Assembly: GCA_944322875.1 (NCBI GenBank)
Contig: CALUQI010000007.1
Span: forward strand, 1 to 37,733
Length of the DNA stretch: 37,733 nt
DNA from: Candidatus Gastranaerophilales bacterium
GTDB lineage: Bacteria; Cyanobacteriota; Vampirovibrionia; Gastranaerophilales; Gastranaerophilaceae
Reading direction: 5' to 3'
In this document: positions 19,897 to 33,624 of the stretch, piece by piece
Layout: each line of letters starts with the position of its first letter
Numbering within the stretch: the stretch's first letter is position 1
The notes under the pieces: generated by a model
The model's input: only the letters and a program-made list of their open reading frames with translations
What the model was told of the DNA's origin: nothing
Database searches by the model: none
Made by a program: the position numbers and the translations under genes

Positions 19897-19917
19897 ACTT
19901 TATAGGGGGTATTGATT

Positions 19918-22900
19918 TTGATTATTCAGGGAACATTAAGTTCTGATAAAACAGATATTTTGGTTTCAAAATATGTTGAACTTTTAAATTCCGGTGTGAA
20001 ATCTTCACAGATTCTTGTGATTGTTCAAAATTCAAGCCTTAAAAATAAATTTATTGAAAAAACATTAGCAAAGTTGAATATTTCCGTTTTGGAAAAGCTT
20101 AATGTATATTCGTTTTTTGGTTTAGTGTATAACACAGTCGTTGATAATTGGGCCTTTTTAGAAAACAGAAATATTTATGATAATACAGTTATTATACCTA
20201 ACCTTGCCGGGTTGGAAATTTCTCAATTTATATTGAAAGACATTTTGAAGGAGATTCCGTTTAAGGGGTACAATTCGAAGAAATCATTATTACACCAGTT
20301 ATTTAGACGTTATTCTTTAATTGTCCAAAATAATTTGTCTGATTCTGATGTTGATGAGCGAGCAAAAATTTTGAAAGAAACTTTTGCTGACGATGCTAAG
20401 TCGGCTTTGAAAAAATTGCTTTCTAAAACTTTACAACTAAGAGATTTTGATTATTTAAGACAAACTTTGGTATTTAATTTTATATATCAAAACACCGGTT
20501 ATTTTGATAATATTAAATATTTAATACTTGATGATGGGGACGAAATTACTCCGGTTTGTTTTGATTTTATAAATTATATTGCTCCGCAGTTAAAGGATGT
20601 TGCTATTGCATATGATAAAAACGGTGCCAGCCGAGCCGGGTATTTGAGTGCTGATAAAAATGCGGTTTGGGAGTTTGAAAAACTTTTTAAGCAAAAAGCT
20701 TTGGAGATTGAAACTCTTACTGCTATGAAAGAAGATGCTGATACTATTTTTAATAATGTTATAAATATTGATAATAAAAAATTAAAAAGATTCGTTTTTC
20801 AATCTCCATCCAAGCGTGCCAAGATGATTGACTTAGCCGTTTCAAAAATCAATGACTTGCTAAAAATGAATATTAAGCCTTCCGAAATTTCTATAGTTAC
20901 TCCAATAATTGATGATATGCTGAAATTTTCTTTGAAAGAAAATATTAATGCTGATTTACTTTTTATCTCAGGAAGTGAAAAACTTGTTCAAAATCGTTTT
21001 GTTCAGGCAGCATTGACAATACTTAAATTGAATACTGATTTAAAAGAAAAATTATCTGAGTTTGATATAAGAGTTATATTAACAGAACTTTTGACAATTC
21101 CGGTTAAATATTGCCGTCAAATTTTGGAAAATTTTGAGCAAACTAAAAAACTACCAAAATTTGATTTCAAGGATGATGAGTTTAATAATAAGTATAAAAA
21201 ACTTCTGAAGCTTATTGAAAGTTTGAATGATTCTGATGCCAGAATGTCAGAACAAGTTTGTGATATATACAATGAAATTGTTGAGTTTACTTTCGTGAAT
21301 CCGGATGAAATAAATAAATTCAATTTCTTTGTAAAACAATTAAGAGAATTTGAAAATATACTGGGTGACGATTTTGAACAAAGGAAAGTTGAAATTATAA
21401 CGCAAATAGAAAACTCAATAATATCAGAAAATCCGTATTCCGTAATTGATATAGACTCAAATAACCTGATAGTTTCAACCCCTCAAAAAATTATTGATAA
21501 CCAAATAAGAACAAAATATCAAATATGGCTTGATGTTTCAAGTGATGAATGGGTAAAAAATGATACCGGACCGCTTTATAATGCTTGGGTATTTCAGAAA
21601 GGTTGGGATAAAGAGACTTATACGATTGAGGATAATATAAATTTGAGCAAAGATAAAACTGCAAGGATGCTCAGAAAACTTGTTTTATGTGCTGATGAGA
21701 GGATTTTTGCATTTTCAAGCCTATTTGACGGAAATGGTGTAGAAAATTTCGGCGGTATTGAAAGTTATATGAATTTTGAACAGGAAACTTCACAAGAACA
21801 GGTTATAAAACCAATAATTCCACGGCCTGATCAGATGCCTGTTTTGGAATACAAGTCCGGAAATATGGCTATATCAGCTGTTCCAGGTGCCGGGAAAACT
21901 ACTATATTATTGGCACTTTTGTTGAAATTGCTTAACTGTGGTGTTTCTCCAGAAAAAATATTTGTACTTACTTATATGGAATCGGCTGCCAGAAATTTCC
22001 GTGAAAAAATAAAAAATATCAGACAAGATTCTGTTCAATTACCCAATATAAGTACAATTCATGGGTTAGCACTTAGAATTCTGAAAGAAAATGGTAATTT
22101 CGAAAGACTGGGACTGAGTTCTGATTTTGAAATCTGTGATGATACCCAGCGCAGTCGAATTATTCGTGAAATCTCGGATAATTTAAAACTTAAAAAGTCA
22201 GAAATTGATGAATTTGATCGCGGTATTTCTATATTTAAACTCTCTAACGGCCAATTAAATATTGAAACTTGTGATAATAAACTTAAAAAGTTTTTTGAAT
22301 TCTTTAATCATTATCAGTTAAAACTTTCCGGTCAAAATCTTATTGATTATGATGATATGCTTATTTCTTCCGTAAAATTGCTAAAGGAAAATTCTGATAT
22401 CTTAAATCACTATCAGGAAATCTGTGAATATATTATAGAAGATGAAGCTCAGGATTCGTCAGCAATTCAGCAAGAATTGATTGGACTCTTGAGCGGTAAA
22501 CATAAAAATTTGATACGGTGCGGGGACATTAACCAAGCTATAACCACCACTTTTTCAAATGCTGATGTTGAAGGGTTTAGAAAATTTATTAATGACAATA
22601 ATAAAGTGATTATGAATTGCTCTCAAAGATGTACAAAAGATGTTTGGACATTGGCTAATAATCTTGTTAATTTCGCTCAATGTAAAGAATATTCTATAAA
22701 TGCGTTTTATAAAATCTTTATGCTTCCTGTAGAAGGGAAAAATCCCATTCAGCAAAATGCTGTTAAATCTAAAATTTTCGAAAACCCTTTGGATGAAAAA
22801 AATTTTGTAATTAAAACAATAAAAAATGCTTTTGCACATAACCCAAAAGCTACTGTTGGTATCCTTTTAAGAAATAATTTCCAGGTTGCTCAATGGCTTA

Positions 22901-23772
22901 ATTTAATTACTGATAGCGGTTTGAAAAGTATTTCAAGGAGTGAGTCCTTAGAACAAAAATCTATTTTTAAAACAATATTCGCTATTTTTTGTATGATAAT
23001 TGAACCTTTTGATAATAATGTCGTCGCTGATAATTATGAAGTATTGGCTGAAATCGGATTGTATAAACCTCGTTTAGGTGTGGAGATAAGAAATTTAGAA
23101 ACCTCTTTCATTGAAACTGATTGTGATAATATTGAAAACCCATACTTAGGTCAGTTTTATTGGGATTTGAATTATTGGCTATCATTGTCTTATTTGCCTC
23201 CTGAGGAACTTGCTATAAAAATAGGATTAACTTATTTCAAAAGTGAAATAGAAAAATCTAATGTCTATCTTATATCTACTTTGATAAAGCGTATAAGTCT
23301 TATAGATAAAAATTTGTCGTATGTTGTACAGAGATTGGGTGAATTGGCGAAAAAACCTTCCTTAAGCGGATTTAAGTTTTTTTCGGAAGAAGATGAGTGT
23401 GACCGTGAATTTTTAGAAGGCAAGGTTCAAATTATGACTCTTCATAAATCGAAAGGTGATGAATTCGATTTGGTTTTTTTACCTGAAATGACCGAAAAAA
23501 ATCTAACTTTAGATTTTGATAATATTAAATTAAAATCATCTGATTTTAATGAAAATATTCGCCGTACAAATCCTGAATACACCGCACGTTCTGAATCAGA
23601 CTTGAAACAGGAATTGATATCAGAGAATTTTAGACTTTTGTATGTCGCAATTACAAGGGCTAAAAGAAATCTTTATATTACAACTAGCAAAAAAAATAAA
23701 TCCTTTGGAAAAATTTTCGAACAAGAACCAAGTATTATATTTTCAGAACTTCTGGGAGGCAGATATGAATAG
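19918..23772 (+). CDS. tandem SF1 helicase: inactive AddB-like half fused to active UvrD-type half
   Basis: A 1284-residue protein. The C-terminal half has all UvrD/Rep motifs: Walker A AVPGAGKTT (about 655), TYMESAARNFREKI (Ia), STIHGLALRIL, DEAQD (about 841), GDINQAI, QRCTKDVWTLANN, MTLHKSKGDEFDLVFLPEM (V) and LLYVAITRAKRN (VI, about 1240). The N-terminal half echoes the same order in decayed form: GTLSSDKTD in place of Walker A, ILVIVQNSSLKNKF, NVYSFFGLVYN, LILDDGDE (about 204), then IVTPIIDDM and STPQKII. This two-fold layout equals AddB-like plus AddA-like helicases on one chain, without a nuclease domain. Start: TTG at 19918 is 8 bases from AGGGGG; TTG at 19912 is only 2 bases from it. 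It overlaps the nuclease gene by 8 bases. Likely role: double-strand break end processing. Confidence 0.85.
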   Translation: MIIQGTLSSDKTDILVSKYVELLNSGVKSSQILVIVQNSSLKNKFIEKTLAKLNISVLEKLNVYSFFGLVYNTVVDNWAFLENRNIYDNTVIIPNLAGLEISQFILKDILKEIPFKGYNSKKSLLHQLFRRYSLIVQNNLSDSDVDERAKILKETFADDAKSALKKLLSKTLQLRDFDYLRQTLVFNFIYQNTGYFDNIKYLILDDGDEITPVCFDFINYIAPQLKDVAIAYDKNGASRAGYLSADKNAVWEFEKLFKQKALEIETLTAMKEDADTIFNNVINIDNKKLKRFVFQSPSKRAKMIDLAVSKINDLLKMNIKPSEISIVTPIIDDMLKFSLKENINADLLFISGSEKLVQNRFVQAALTILKLNTDLKEKLSEFDIRVILTELLTIPVKYCRQILENFEQTKKLPKFDFKDDEFNNKYKKLLKLIESLNDSDARMSEQVCDIYNEIVEFTFVNPDEINKFNFFVKQLREFENILGDDFEQRKVEIITQIENSIISENPYSVIDIDSNNLIVSTPQKIIDNQIRTKYQIWLDVSSDEWVKNDTGPLYNAWVFQKGWDKETYTIEDNINLSKDKTARMLRKLVLCADERIFAFSSLFDGNGVENFGGIESYMNFEQETSQEQVIKPIIPRPDQMPVLEYKSGNMAISAVPGAGKTTILLALLLKLLNCGVSPEKIFVLTYMESAARNFREKIKNIRQDSVQLPNISTIHGLALRILKENGNFERLGLSSDFEICDDTQRSRIIREISDNLKLKKSEIDEFDRGISIFKLSNGQLNIETCDNKLKKFFEFFNHYQLKLSGQNLIDYDDMLISSVKLLKENSDILNHYQEICEYIIEDEAQDSSAIQQELIGLLSGKHKNLIRCGDINQAITTTFSNADVEGFRKFINDNNKVIMNCSQRCTKDVWTLANNLVNFAQCKEYSINAFYKIFMLPVEGKNPIQQNAVKSKIFENPLDEKNFVIKTIKNAFAHNPKATVGILLRNNFQVAQWLNLITDSGLKSISRSESLEQKSIFKTIFAIFCMIIEPFDNNVVADNYEVLAEIGLYKPRLGVEIRNLETSFIETDCDNIENPYLGQFYWDLNYWLSLSYLPPEELAIKIGLTYFKSEIEKSNVYLISTLIKRISLIDKNLSYVVQRLGELAKKPSLSGFKFFSEEDECDREFLEGKVQIMTLHKSKGDEFDLVFLPEMTEKNLTLDFDNIKLKSSDFNENIRRTNPEYTARSESDLKQELISENFRLLYVAITRAKRNLYITTSKKNKSFGKIFEQEPSIIFSELLGGRYE

Positions 23773-24403
23773 TTTTTCACCTAATATGCTCAAAACATTC
23801 AATGAATGTCCAAAAAAATATTATTATAAGTACGTTAAAAAAATATCTGTTCCGCAAAAAGAATCTTATTTTGAAAGAGGTAAGAAAATTCACGCGATTG
23901 CAAACTATTATCTTAAAGGTGAAGATATATCTAAAATGGAAAAAATTCTTGATAAAGAAGATTTAATTTTGTGGGAAAGGCTTAAAAGTAATGAATTCTT
24001 TAATAAACAATACCTGTATTCTGAGTACAATCTTTCCTGTAAAATTGAAAATTTTTGGATAAATGGTCGTTTAGATGCTATTTTTAGAGAACATGATAAA
24101 TATTTTATTTTGGATTATAAAACCGGTTCAATTCCCAAAAATCCTGAATATGATTTCCAGACTATGATTTACTTGATTATGGCTGACCAATTTTTGGAAG
24201 ATTATGTGAGTCTCTCTTTTGTATATTTGGATCTTAAGAAGGACATAAATTATGAAATTGTCTTAACCGAAAATCTTAAAAATAGTTATATATCACAAAT
24301 ATCAAATATAGTTAAAGAAATTCTTAAAACTCAAGAATATCACACCAAAACAGATAACTGCAGATTCTGTGAATATGTAAAGCTGTGTGGATTATTGAGA
24401 TAA
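23765..24403 (+). CDS. PD-(D/E)XK nuclease with Fe-S cluster cysteines (AddB C-terminal/Cas4-like)
   Basis: A 212-residue RecB-family nuclease. His43 (ERGKKIH), Asp104 (GRLDAIF), Asp117-x-Lys119 (ILDYKTG) and Gln132 form the RecB-type active site. Cys15 (NECPKKYYYKY) with Cys199-x2-Cys202-x5-Cys208 can hold a 4Fe-4S staple; as I recall, Bacillus AddB has the same C-terminal spacing. The ATG lies inside the helicase stop (ATGAATAG) with GGGAGG 5 bases upstream, so translation is coupled. A lone Cas4 is the alternative, but there is no CRISPR array or cas gene nearby, and the helicase partner favours end resection. It is about the length of the isolated nuclease module of AddA/AddB. Confidence 0.87.
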   Translation: MNSFSPNMLKTFNECPKKYYYKYVKKISVPQKESYFERGKKIHAIANYYLKGEDISKMEKILDKEDLILWERLKSNEFFNKQYLYSEYNLSCKIENFWINGRLDAIFREHDKYFILDYKTGSIPKNPEYDFQTMIYLIMADQFLEDYVSLSFVYLDLKKDINYEIVLTENLKNSYISQISNIVKEILKTQEYHTKTDNCRFCEYVKLCGLLR

Positions 24404-31611: not shown

Positions 31612-33624
31612 ATGAATGAACTACTTAACAGATTAAAAAACAGTATTAATAAAGAAATACTTAATCATATAAGTGATGCACTAATGGAACAAAATAAATT
31701 TGTTCCTATTAGTGTAAAGGATAAGTTTTTATTTGTTGCAGTGGGCTCAAGTTCAGATAAAGATAGTGTAAGTAAAATATTAAAAAATTATTTCCCTTAC
31801 CAGATAAAATTTATACAAGTTTTAGATGCAGATTTAAATGAGTTAATATACAGTCTTAAGAGGGATTCTTCAACACCTTCTCTTTTTGATGGACATGAAG
31901 AAAAACAAATCAAGCTCGGTGAAATGTTAATTCAAAAAGGTTACATAACCGACGTACAGCTTTTACAAGCACTTGCTGAAAGTAAACGATTAAAGATGCC
32001 TGTTGGATCTACTTTATTCAAGTTAGGATTCATCTCTTTAGATCAGTTGAAGTCTATTTTGCATTTGCAAACCGGATTTGACATGGTTAGTAATGAACAA
32101 TTGGCAAAGCAAGATAAGTTTGTAAATATTTTGCCGGAAGATTTTATTAAGGCAAATCAAGTAATACCGATTTCTTCTGACGGAAAAACCCTTACTTTAG
32201 GTGTTGTACATCCTGTAAAACCTGATGTATTGAAAGAAATTATATATTTAACAGGGCAAAATCCAAAACAGCTTTTGATGACGCACTATGAGTTTGAAAA
32301 CTCTTTAGAAATGTTTTTTAGTGCACAGAAAAAAGAAACACAAAAAATAATCAAACAAATTGAAACTGAAGCAGCTGATATAGAGGTAGAAGAAAGTCTT
32401 TGGGAACAAGTTGATGCGGAATTACAGGACTCGACAGGTTCTGTAGCAAAATTTGTAAACCAAATCATCACTAATGCTATTGATAATAAAGTTTCTGATA
32501 TTCATATAGAACCAAGGTTAGATGGTTATATAGTAAGATATCGAAAAGACGGTATGTTGCAAAAAGTTTTAGAAATCCCTTCAAAAGTAGAAACTTCTGT
32601 TATTGCCAGATTTAAAGTTATGTCTAGAATGAATATTGCTGAGCATAGACGTCCTCAAGACGGTACTTTTTCAATAAAATACAAAAAGCAATCTTATGAT
32701 TTTCGTATAAATACCTTGTCTGTGTCCGGAAAAGAAAAGATGGTTATTCGTGTTTTAGCTCCTGCAGTTAGTTTGAAAGCGGAAGATAGAAAGATAGTTT
32801 TAGCCGGTGCTACAGATGCTGATCTTGCTAAAATTAAAGATATGATTAGCTGTCCAAATGGTATTATTTTAACTTCAGGACCAACAGGATCCGGTAAAAC
32901 TACCACTTTATATTCCGTATTGAGAAGCTTGAATGATGAACACGTTAATATTACTACAATTGAAGACCCTATTGAAATTAAGTTAGAAGGGATTAATCAA
33001 TCTCAAGTTAATCCCAAAGCCGGTATAACTTTTGCCTCTTGTATGCGTGCAATATTAAGACAAGATCCGGATATTATACTTGTTGGTGAAATCCGCGACT
33101 ACGAAACTTTAGAAATAGCGATTTCTGCCGCACTAACAGGACATTTGGTTTTGAGTACTGTTCACACTAACTCTGCCGCTGCAACCGTTACAAGATTAAT
33201 TGAAATGGGGGCAAAAGATTATCTTGTATCTTCAACATTGTCAGGTGTTATCGCTCAGCGTTTAGTAAGATCATTGTGCCCGGATTGTAAGGAGGAATGT
33301 TTCCCCACTTATGAAGAAGCAAGGCAAGTTTATTCTAAAGAGGAAGATATACAGAAGTTTATGAAAACACCTATTTATAGAGCAAAAGGTTGTAATAAAT
33401 GTGATTTTACGGGATACAAGGGTCGTCTTGGCGTATTTGAAATTATGCCTATTACAAAAGAAATTAAAAAACTTATTGCTCAAGGTGCGCATGATCTTGC
33501 TATTGAAGAATCGGCAGTTGCTAATGGGATGATAACTTTAAACCAGTCCTGTTTAAATCATATAAAAAACGGTATTACAACCATTGAAGAATTTGTAAGA
33601 GTTTTGGGTATTGTTAGTGAATAA
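31612..33624 (+). CDS. pilB: type IV pilus assembly ATPase PilB/GspE
   Basis: A 670-residue AAA-type secretion ATPase. An N-terminal region of about 100 residues precedes a MshEN/GspE-N domain (LGEMLIQKGYITDVQLLQALAE, about 102-170) of the kind that can bind c-di-GMP. The ATPase core contains Walker A GPTGSGKTTT (about 423-432), the Asp box TIEDPIEI, Walker B ILVGEIRD (about 487-494) and the His box LVLSTVHTNSAAA. A tetracysteine zinc site is formed by CPDCKEEC (about 556) and CNKC (about 594). It powers pilus extension rather than retraction: PilT lacks the zinc site and the N-terminal domains. Found 15 bases after the secretin. Confidence 0.94.
   Translation: MNELLNRLKNSINKEILNHISDALMEQNKFVPISVKDKFLFVAVGSSSDKDSVSKILKNYFPYQIKFIQVLDADLNELIYSLKRDSSTPSLFDGHEEKQIKLGEMLIQKGYITDVQLLQALAESKRLKMPVGSTLFKLGFISLDQLKSILHLQTGFDMVSNEQLAKQDKFVNILPEDFIKANQVIPISSDGKTLTLGVVHPVKPDVLKEIIYLTGQNPKQLLMTHYEFENSLEMFFSAQKKETQKIIKQIETEAADIEVEESLWEQVDAELQDSTGSVAKFVNQIITNAIDNKVSDIHIEPRLDGYIVRYRKDGMLQKVLEIPSKVETSVIARFKVMSRMNIAEHRRPQDGTFSIKYKKQSYDFRINTLSVSGKEKMVIRVLAPAVSLKAEDRKIVLAGATDADLAKIKDMISCPNGIILTSGPTGSGKTTTLYSVLRSLNDEHVNITTIEDPIEIKLEGINQSQVNPKAGITFASCMRAILRQDPDIILVGEIRDYETLEIAISAALTGHLVLSTVHTNSAAATVTRLIEMGAKDYLVSSTLSGVIAQRLVRSLCPDCKEECFPTYEEARQVYSKEEDIQKFMKTPIYRAKGCNKCDFTGYKGRLGVFEIMPITKEIKKLIAQGAHDLAIEESAVANGMITLNQSCLNHIKNGITTIEEFVRVLGIVSE

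Follow-up and report, generated by a model that had tools for sequence, protein, structure and literature searches.

A helicase–nuclease gene pair of Gastranaerophilales as a candidate form of a three-part DNA end-resection system in Cyanobacteriota

A 37,733-nucleotide stretch of DNA from a Candidatus Gastranaerophilales bacterium (GenBank assembly GCA_944322875.1, contig CALUQI010000007.1; the whole stretch is hereafter called the window) encodes, on its forward strand, a 1284-residue fused helicase followed directly by a 212-residue nuclease. The helicase joins an inactive-looking N-terminal lobe (N-lobe) to a UvrD-type motor (C-lobe), and sequence comparison indicates that this fusion is a local form of phylum-wide parts, which are unfused in the other two classes, Cyanobacteriia and Sericytochromatia; that the system is a novelty of the window's lineage is ruled out by the presence of the N-lobe in both. 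We predict, with somewhat more confidence than doubt, that the pair makes a single helicase–nuclease complex for resecting the ends of double-strand DNA and for degrading foreign DNA in linear form, similar in its working to AddAB and RecBCD and of separate descent. The complex would likely be encoded by three genes in cyanobacteria and by two in Gastranaerophilales. The prediction draws on the constancy of the pair, the fold of the N-lobe, the clade formed by the motors, the co-occurrence of the two lobes, the adjacency of motor and nuclease in a sericytochromatial genome (G035), the recCBD genes of a cyanobacterium (G114), the neighbouring gene priA, and phenotypes recorded in Synechococcus elongatus.

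Two helicase lobes and a separate nuclease

The helicase reading frame (19918–23772) opens with TTG at 19918, eight bases after a GGGGG at 19905–19909 that is likely its ribosome-binding site, and closes with TAG at 23770–23772; full-length relatives occur in the same family. Pfam confines the UvrD domains to residues 639–1258 and detects no nuclease domain in the chain, while PF12705 is found in the 212-residue protein, whose frame (23765–24403) begins with an ATG at 23765 and overlaps the end of the helicase by 8 nucleotides (23765–23772). An earlier note, made from the sequence alone, had described a decayed helicase half and a complete UvrD half in one chain devoid of a nuclease domain, with a separate nuclease starting inside the helicase stop, and both Pfam and the motif positions agree with that description. 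The sequences it had named in the N-lobe (residues 1–628, 19918–21801) are likewise where it placed them, with GTLSSDKTD at residues 5–13 (19930–19956) instead of Walker A and LILDDGDE at residues 202–209 (20521–20544) instead of motif II. Alignment of the C-lobe (residues 629–1284, 21802–23769) identifies Walker A as AVPGAGKT (residues 654–661, 21877–21900; identical in 49/49 rows), motif II as EDEAQD (residues 841–846, 22438–22455), and motif VI as VAITRAK (residues 1243–1249, 23644–23664).

The note had also expected a helicase-like fold for the N-terminal ~620 residues, and the AlphaFold2 model of the N-lobe indeed shows a full superfamily 1A (SF1A) helicase fold with a predicted local distance difference test score (pLDDT) of 86.6. 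The model matches UvrD, AdnB, and AddB in Foldseek and VIA; in Foldseek, AdnAB gives the best query-normalised template-modelling (TM) score, 0.67, and RecC is among the matches (3.4e-10). When a 1200-residue orthologue was modelled (predicted TM score 0.77), AddB was the only one of the 50 matches listed to superpose on the N-lobe, and UvrD, AdnB, and AddA superposed on the motor. At the sequence level, a phylum-wide N-lobe profile finds PcrA in the Protein Data Bank (PDB) at 2.3e-11; the family's own N-lobe profile gave a single, unrelated match there (E 1.5).

Motif decay in the N-lobe is uneven. In the family alignment, the glycine preceding the P-loop lysine is substituted in 46 of 49 N-lobes, and the GxxxxGKT consensus of Walker A is retained in two of the 49. 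The strict consensus is present in 18 of the 19 free-standing cyanobacterial and 10 of the 11 sericytochromatial N-lobes tested, in one of three outer fusion rows (a second, from G373, reads AxxxxGKT), and in none of the 12 family fusions of the N-lobe tree. Since the free-standing N-lobes mostly keep it, the loss of Walker A is derived. No TRAK-type motif VI was found across 45 N-lobe rows covering cyanobacterial, sericytochromatial, and fused forms. Judged by these motifs, the N-lobe seems to have lost its drive for movement early, and to have kept its nucleotide-binding loop until late in the window's lineage. Separately, one family locus (L067, genome G075) carries a 176-residue in-frame insertion near N-lobe residue 265, which is flanked by near-identical repeats and, on inspection by eye, looks like a nuclease of the DUF559 type; in G150, G176, and G201, longer frames suggest comparable insertions.

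A tree of 52 SF1A motors unites the C-lobes of the 15 fusions, a single sericytochromatial gene, and the cyanobacterial non-PcrA UvrD in one clade (support 100/99), which includes the cyanobacterial protein in all seven cyanobacteria tested and is separate from PcrA, AddA, and the UvrD–Cas4 fusions; the inner order of the clade is unsure owing to the long branches of G035 and G377. The seven UvrD–Cas4 fusion rows make up a clade of their own, and AddA groups with PcrA at 96/87. The NCBIfam models addA_Gpos and recB score the helicase at 87.4 and 69.9 bits, against cut-offs of 707.65 and 696.05.

These placements bear on the possibility that the pair is a rearranged AddAB by descent, in which the helicase part of AddB became fused to that of AddA and one nuclease domain was split off. 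The lists of parts are similar, the N-lobe has AddB among its structural matches, and three relatives have AddA frames devoid of a nuclease domain. Against such an origin, AddA is placed outside the motor clade, the phylum's other classes already have the parts as separate genes, and the profile–profile probability between the N-lobe and AddB is 5.7% (from seven AddB sequences, all of the same family) compared to 45% between the N-lobe and its own C-lobe. We therefore disfavor this origin as highly improbable. The earlier note's picture of an AddAB-like machine with re-partitioned parts thus holds for the parts, namely a chain that joins an inactive-looking lobe to a motor, and a nuclease of Fe-S type as a protein of its own, and is not supported as to AddAB descent, given a motor clade that excludes AddA and the low profile–profile probability between N-lobe and AddB.

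The nuclease has a RecB-type PD-(D/E)XK core and four cysteines, from which an iron–sulfur (Fe-S) cluster is predicted. Pfam, NCBIfam, PADLOC, and a profile search of the PDB all make it a member of the Cas4/AddB/AdnB superfamily, with 55.5 bits for the Cas4 model TIGR00372 (cut-off 65) and 8.8 bits for addB_alphas (cut-off 486.5). The catalytic core, from Asp104 to Asp117-x-Lys119 (24074–24121), and the likely Fe-S site made up of Cys15 together with Cys199, Cys202, and Cys208 (the latter three at 24359–24388) are positioned as first proposed and are invariant in 33 aligned nucleases. Against PDB sequences, the nuclease profile matches AdnB best (6e-7), and two solved cyanobacterial PD-(D/E)XK proteins of ~275 residues also match, 9iab at 6e-4 and 9iac at 2e-3; our literature search turned up no paper describing 9iab.

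A free PF12705 protein of 257–293 residues is present in seven of seven cyanobacteria tested that have both lobes, and a cyanobacterial nuclease matches 9iac weakly (3.7e-5). In the nuclease tree, these free proteins group with the nuclease adjoining the fused helicase of G377 at 95/97, while the nuclease of G035 is placed on a long branch with those of AddA, AddB, and the UvrD–Cas4 fusions. By sequence, the pair nuclease and the cyanobacterial free nuclease are likely orthologous.

Compared with the known families, the arrangement is recognizable in kind and distinct in composition. AddA carries a C-terminal nuclease domain, and AddB is a single chain made up of an inactive helicase and then an Fe-S nuclease, whereas here the motor comes after the N-lobe, lacks a nuclease domain, and falls outside the AddA clade, and the single nuclease has a gene of its own; the modelled N-lobe has an inactive SF1 helicase fold like the N-terminus of AddB, but no NCBIfam AddA or AddB model matches above its cut-off. 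AdnAB provides both the best TM score for the N-lobe and the best PDB sequence match for the nuclease. Both of its subunits, AdnA and AdnB, possess a nuclease domain, and here neither lobe has one. RecBCD is similar in that RecC contributes an inactive helicase domain and RecB a motor, but the motor described here lacks the RecB-type nuclease and scores below the recB cut-off. The nuclease shares with Cas4 the RecB-type core and the four cysteines, but its family score is below the cut-off. The UvrD–Cas4 fusions of the window's family belong to a separate motor clade. A UvrD helicase with an adjacent Cas4-like nuclease has been reported from 'mostly Clostridiales' in a non-defence context, with a guessed role in DNA repair (PMC5704561); the portion of that paper available to us has this two-gene combination in common with the pair and mentions neither an inactive lobe nor a three-part system in cyanobacteria. 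No description of the three-part system was found in our literature search, which lay mostly outside subscription journals and wholly outside bioRxiv preprints. As a family, the system fails tested defining features of AddAB, AdnAB, and RecBCD; as a kind, it is a helicase–nuclease.

Distribution in the family and across the phylum

The nuclease directly follows the helicase on the same strand in all 48 family loci tabulated, and the N-lobe profile matches 91 of the 97 family genomes (81 of the 83 good ones). In one further locus (L328, G168), the frame of the fused helicase stops short of motif VI, close to the end of its contig, and the nuclease is matched on another contig, which may reflect a broken gene or an assembly error. 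The earlier note had named canonical addA/addB or recBCD genes in the same genome as findings that would count against it. In the genome of the window, which is 1.49 Mb long and 94.1% complete, the AddB profile has no AddB match, and the UvrD family occurs at three places, none resembling AddA or RecB, namely PcrA (by tree), the fused helicase, and a 1041-residue SF1-type protein (judged by eye), with RecC and RecD not searched. PF12705 occurs in that genome only in the 212-residue nuclease.

Elsewhere in the family, AddB is present in 16 of 97 genomes, three times as fragments (G155, G171, G178). The N-lobe occurs without AddB in 76 genomes, including that of the window, AddB without the N-lobe in one (G171, 80% complete), and neither in five (G149, G174, and the incomplete G165, G173, and G191); within the window's own genus, G115 lacks the pair. 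The distribution of AddA is based on the loci read. At three family loci (L057, L058, and L070; genomes G130, G207, and G155), AddA frames of 862, 881, and 832 residues stop after the helicase and have no nuclease domain, while the adjoining AddB keeps its own, giving another one-nuclease arrangement. The ~1000-residue PF12705 proteins of relatives were considered as possible AddB, and the four loci read hold UvrD–Cas4 fusions instead (partial frames); such separate fusions, of ~1000–1030 residues, occur in L049–L052 and in about half of the family sample, and are absent from the window's genome.

Beyond the window's class, the N-lobe gives weak, colinear matches in true cyanobacteria, inside frames of ~700 residues. 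It is free-standing in Cyanobacteriia and Sericytochromatia, mostly at ~640–810 residues; in one case (L174, G231) it is read in two neighboring frames, one of 334 and the other of 361 residues, either a split gene or a sequence error. A protein search from one cyanobacterial N-lobe found 2265 relatives among 7997 candidates scored, and among the best 120 of these, all that carry an organism name are cyanobacterial (e.g., Pseudanabaena, Coleofasciculus, Leptolyngbya), under protein names such as hypothetical or 'recombinase family protein'. A search from the G035 N-lobe gave 11 matches, two of which bear the name Candidatus Sericytochromatia, including one with the same sequence as the query. 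The protein searches covered the best 120 of 2670, the best 120 of 2265, and these 11 matches, and the named-genome scan the best 80 of 304 loci, whose titles name Gastranaerophilales, Melainabacteria, or Cyanobacteria, others being labelled as uncultured bacteria and a few bearing unusual bin names. The N-lobe tree has one group for the 19 cyanobacterial rows, one for the 11 sericytochromatial rows, and one for the 12 family fusions; the fusions, 15 in all, come together at 100/97, although long branches meet among the fusions and make the deep joins less sure. G035, where a 693-residue motor adjoins a 234-residue nuclease and the N-lobe is found on a different contig, is an intermediate arrangement.

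We scored both lobes in 203 genomes outside the window's class, with cut-offs for the combined profiles of E 1e-15 for the N-lobe and 1e-70 for the motor, the latter falling in the gap between 1e-54 and 1e-80. The N-lobe is present in 139 genomes; 134 have both lobes and 62 have neither, the incomplete G047 being scored as absent despite an N-lobe match at 1.3e-11. Joint absence is seen in the small-genome family f28, in f26 (2/2), in G213, G001, and G047, and, within the window's own class, in f2 (8/8) and f35 (1/1). The f28 genomes measure 1.6–3.7 Mb, which together with recBCD suggests that this is the Prochlorococcus/Synechococcus family. In its member G114, read whole, the N-lobe and motor profiles match only a PcrA-size protein and RecB, and the nuclease profile has no match; this member of a family lacking the window-type system carries recC, recB, and recD side by side at 1010746–1020122. 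They match NCBIfam models along their length at 489, 603, and 292 bits, below the curated cut-offs of 583, 696, and 310, recD having been scored on a piece. In G058, a PF12705 protein that matches AddB adjoins a second one of 1087 residues, and the system can thus coexist with AddAB-type genes in cyanobacteria.

It is also conceivable that the two genes are separate tools, namely a UvrD-like accessory helicase that has a lobe for regulation and acts in fork repair or in clearing RecA, and an independent nuclease. In favor of this are the UvrD-like character of the motor, the lack of linkage among the three cyanobacterial genes in the stretches read, the location of the G261 nuclease on another contig, and the loose placement of the nuclease in its tree. 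Against such independence stand the adjacency of the pair in all family loci tabulated, that of motor and nuclease in G035, G373, and G377, and the free PF12705 protein found in every cyanobacterium tested that has both lobes, and we consider it quite unlikely.

The predicted complex and the evidence weighed

If the two lobes and the nuclease form one complex, in cyanobacteria as in Gastranaerophilales, the motor would run 3'–5' on one strand, and the inactive lobe would guide or scan the other, by analogy with the inactive domains of AddB and RecC. The nuclease would then cut the threaded strands, and the product would be a 3' tail for RecA. The inactivated helicase domains of AddAB and RecBCD have been proposed to recognise Chi, according to the part of PMC4824097 available to us.

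Experimental hints come from S. elongatus, for which the available portions of two reports (PMC10653904, PMC7125226) indicate that loss of cas4 or uvrD favors transfer or maintenance of an RSF1010 plasmid, that loss of Cas4 improves transformation, and that the uvrD of the plasmid screen is a PcrA paralogue. These phenotypes, as far as they are described there, fit the loss of a DNA-degrading complex. They would also suit a defence or anti-plasmid module that destroys incoming DNA and has no part in the repair of the cell's own breaks, as the recorded phenotypes concern plasmid and transformation control. PADLOC models for a GajB-type UvrD helicase and for Cas4 match the motor and the nuclease, and UvrD–Cas4 fusions are assigned to defence in the accessible part of PMC5704561. 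However, the PADLOC matches reflect the shared SF1 fold, and the free N-lobe matches no PADLOC model; moreover, unlike patchy defence genes, the system is found in nearly all family genomes and in the 134 others. The genomic context also speaks against defence, since the pair's neighbors in the window include the household genes gyrB, coaD, and atpD, and priA lies directly upstream of it in three loci from two other genera (L330, L331, L332), ending 4 nucleotides before the helicase start or overlapping it. The identity of PriA was confirmed by family search for L331, and this neighborhood may link the pair to replication restart. We judge a purely defensive role to be unlikely. A further gene in the window, for a PilB-like type IV pilus ATPase (31612–33624), lies 7 kb downstream of the pair.

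Several observations weigh against a single end-resection complex. The S. elongatus cas4 and uvrD genes are only presumed orthologues of the window's nuclease and motor; the N-lobe gene is absent from the six named hits of the plasmid screen, and neither cas4 nor uvrD is mentioned in the main text of an ultraviolet (UV) screen of that species, in both cases as far as the available text goes. No motor or nuclease of this kind lies near the free-standing N-lobe in the eight stretches read (seven cyanobacterial, one sericytochromatial), and in the order mate G261 the nuclease and the helicase are on different contigs. Seven of the 203 genomes have one lobe only (the N-lobe in G029, G032, G118, G131, and G403; the motor in G016 and G255), and f28, with both lobes missing from 57/57 members, accounts for all but five of the 62 double absences, so that Fisher's p of 1.7e-43 for co-occurrence is not a fair probability. 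The nuclease tree leaves the other pair nucleases without firm placement. Four loci (L329–L332; genomes G146, G203, G161, and G362) have a pair nuclease lacking all four cysteines and keeping the catalytic core, from which the Fe-S cluster, if present, appears by sequence to be dispensable. Finally, canonical AddB occurs together with the N-lobe in 15 of the 91 N-lobe-bearing family genomes, and the pair is therefore not simply an AddAB substitute. Some lineages also live without the system: G115, G149, and G174 have one PF12705 protein only, of 1019–1032 residues, and G077 has none at all.

Taking these points together, we still favor one end-resecting complex. Whether it amounts to a fourth bacterial class beside RecBCD, AddAB, and AdnAB is, in our estimation, evenly balanced. 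Such a class would consist, throughout the Cyanobacteriota, of an inactive helicase subunit, a UvrD motor, and a Cas4-like nuclease; it would be the RecBCD equivalent thought to be missing from model cyanobacteria, displaced by RecBCD itself in small-genome marine lineages and condensed into a two-gene operon in Gastranaerophilales. If this is true, inactive helicase lobes would be found combined with an active motor and a Cas4-like nuclease outside the three known families as well. The Gastranaerophilales fusion points to specific cyanobacterial genes as candidate parts of one machine, among them the N-lobe gene, which is widespread outside the window's class and has no assigned function. Because the fusion names these candidates, the question becomes testable in tractable cyanobacterial strains, and the answer would matter in practice to cyanobacterial engineering, for transformation as well as for the maintenance of plasmids.

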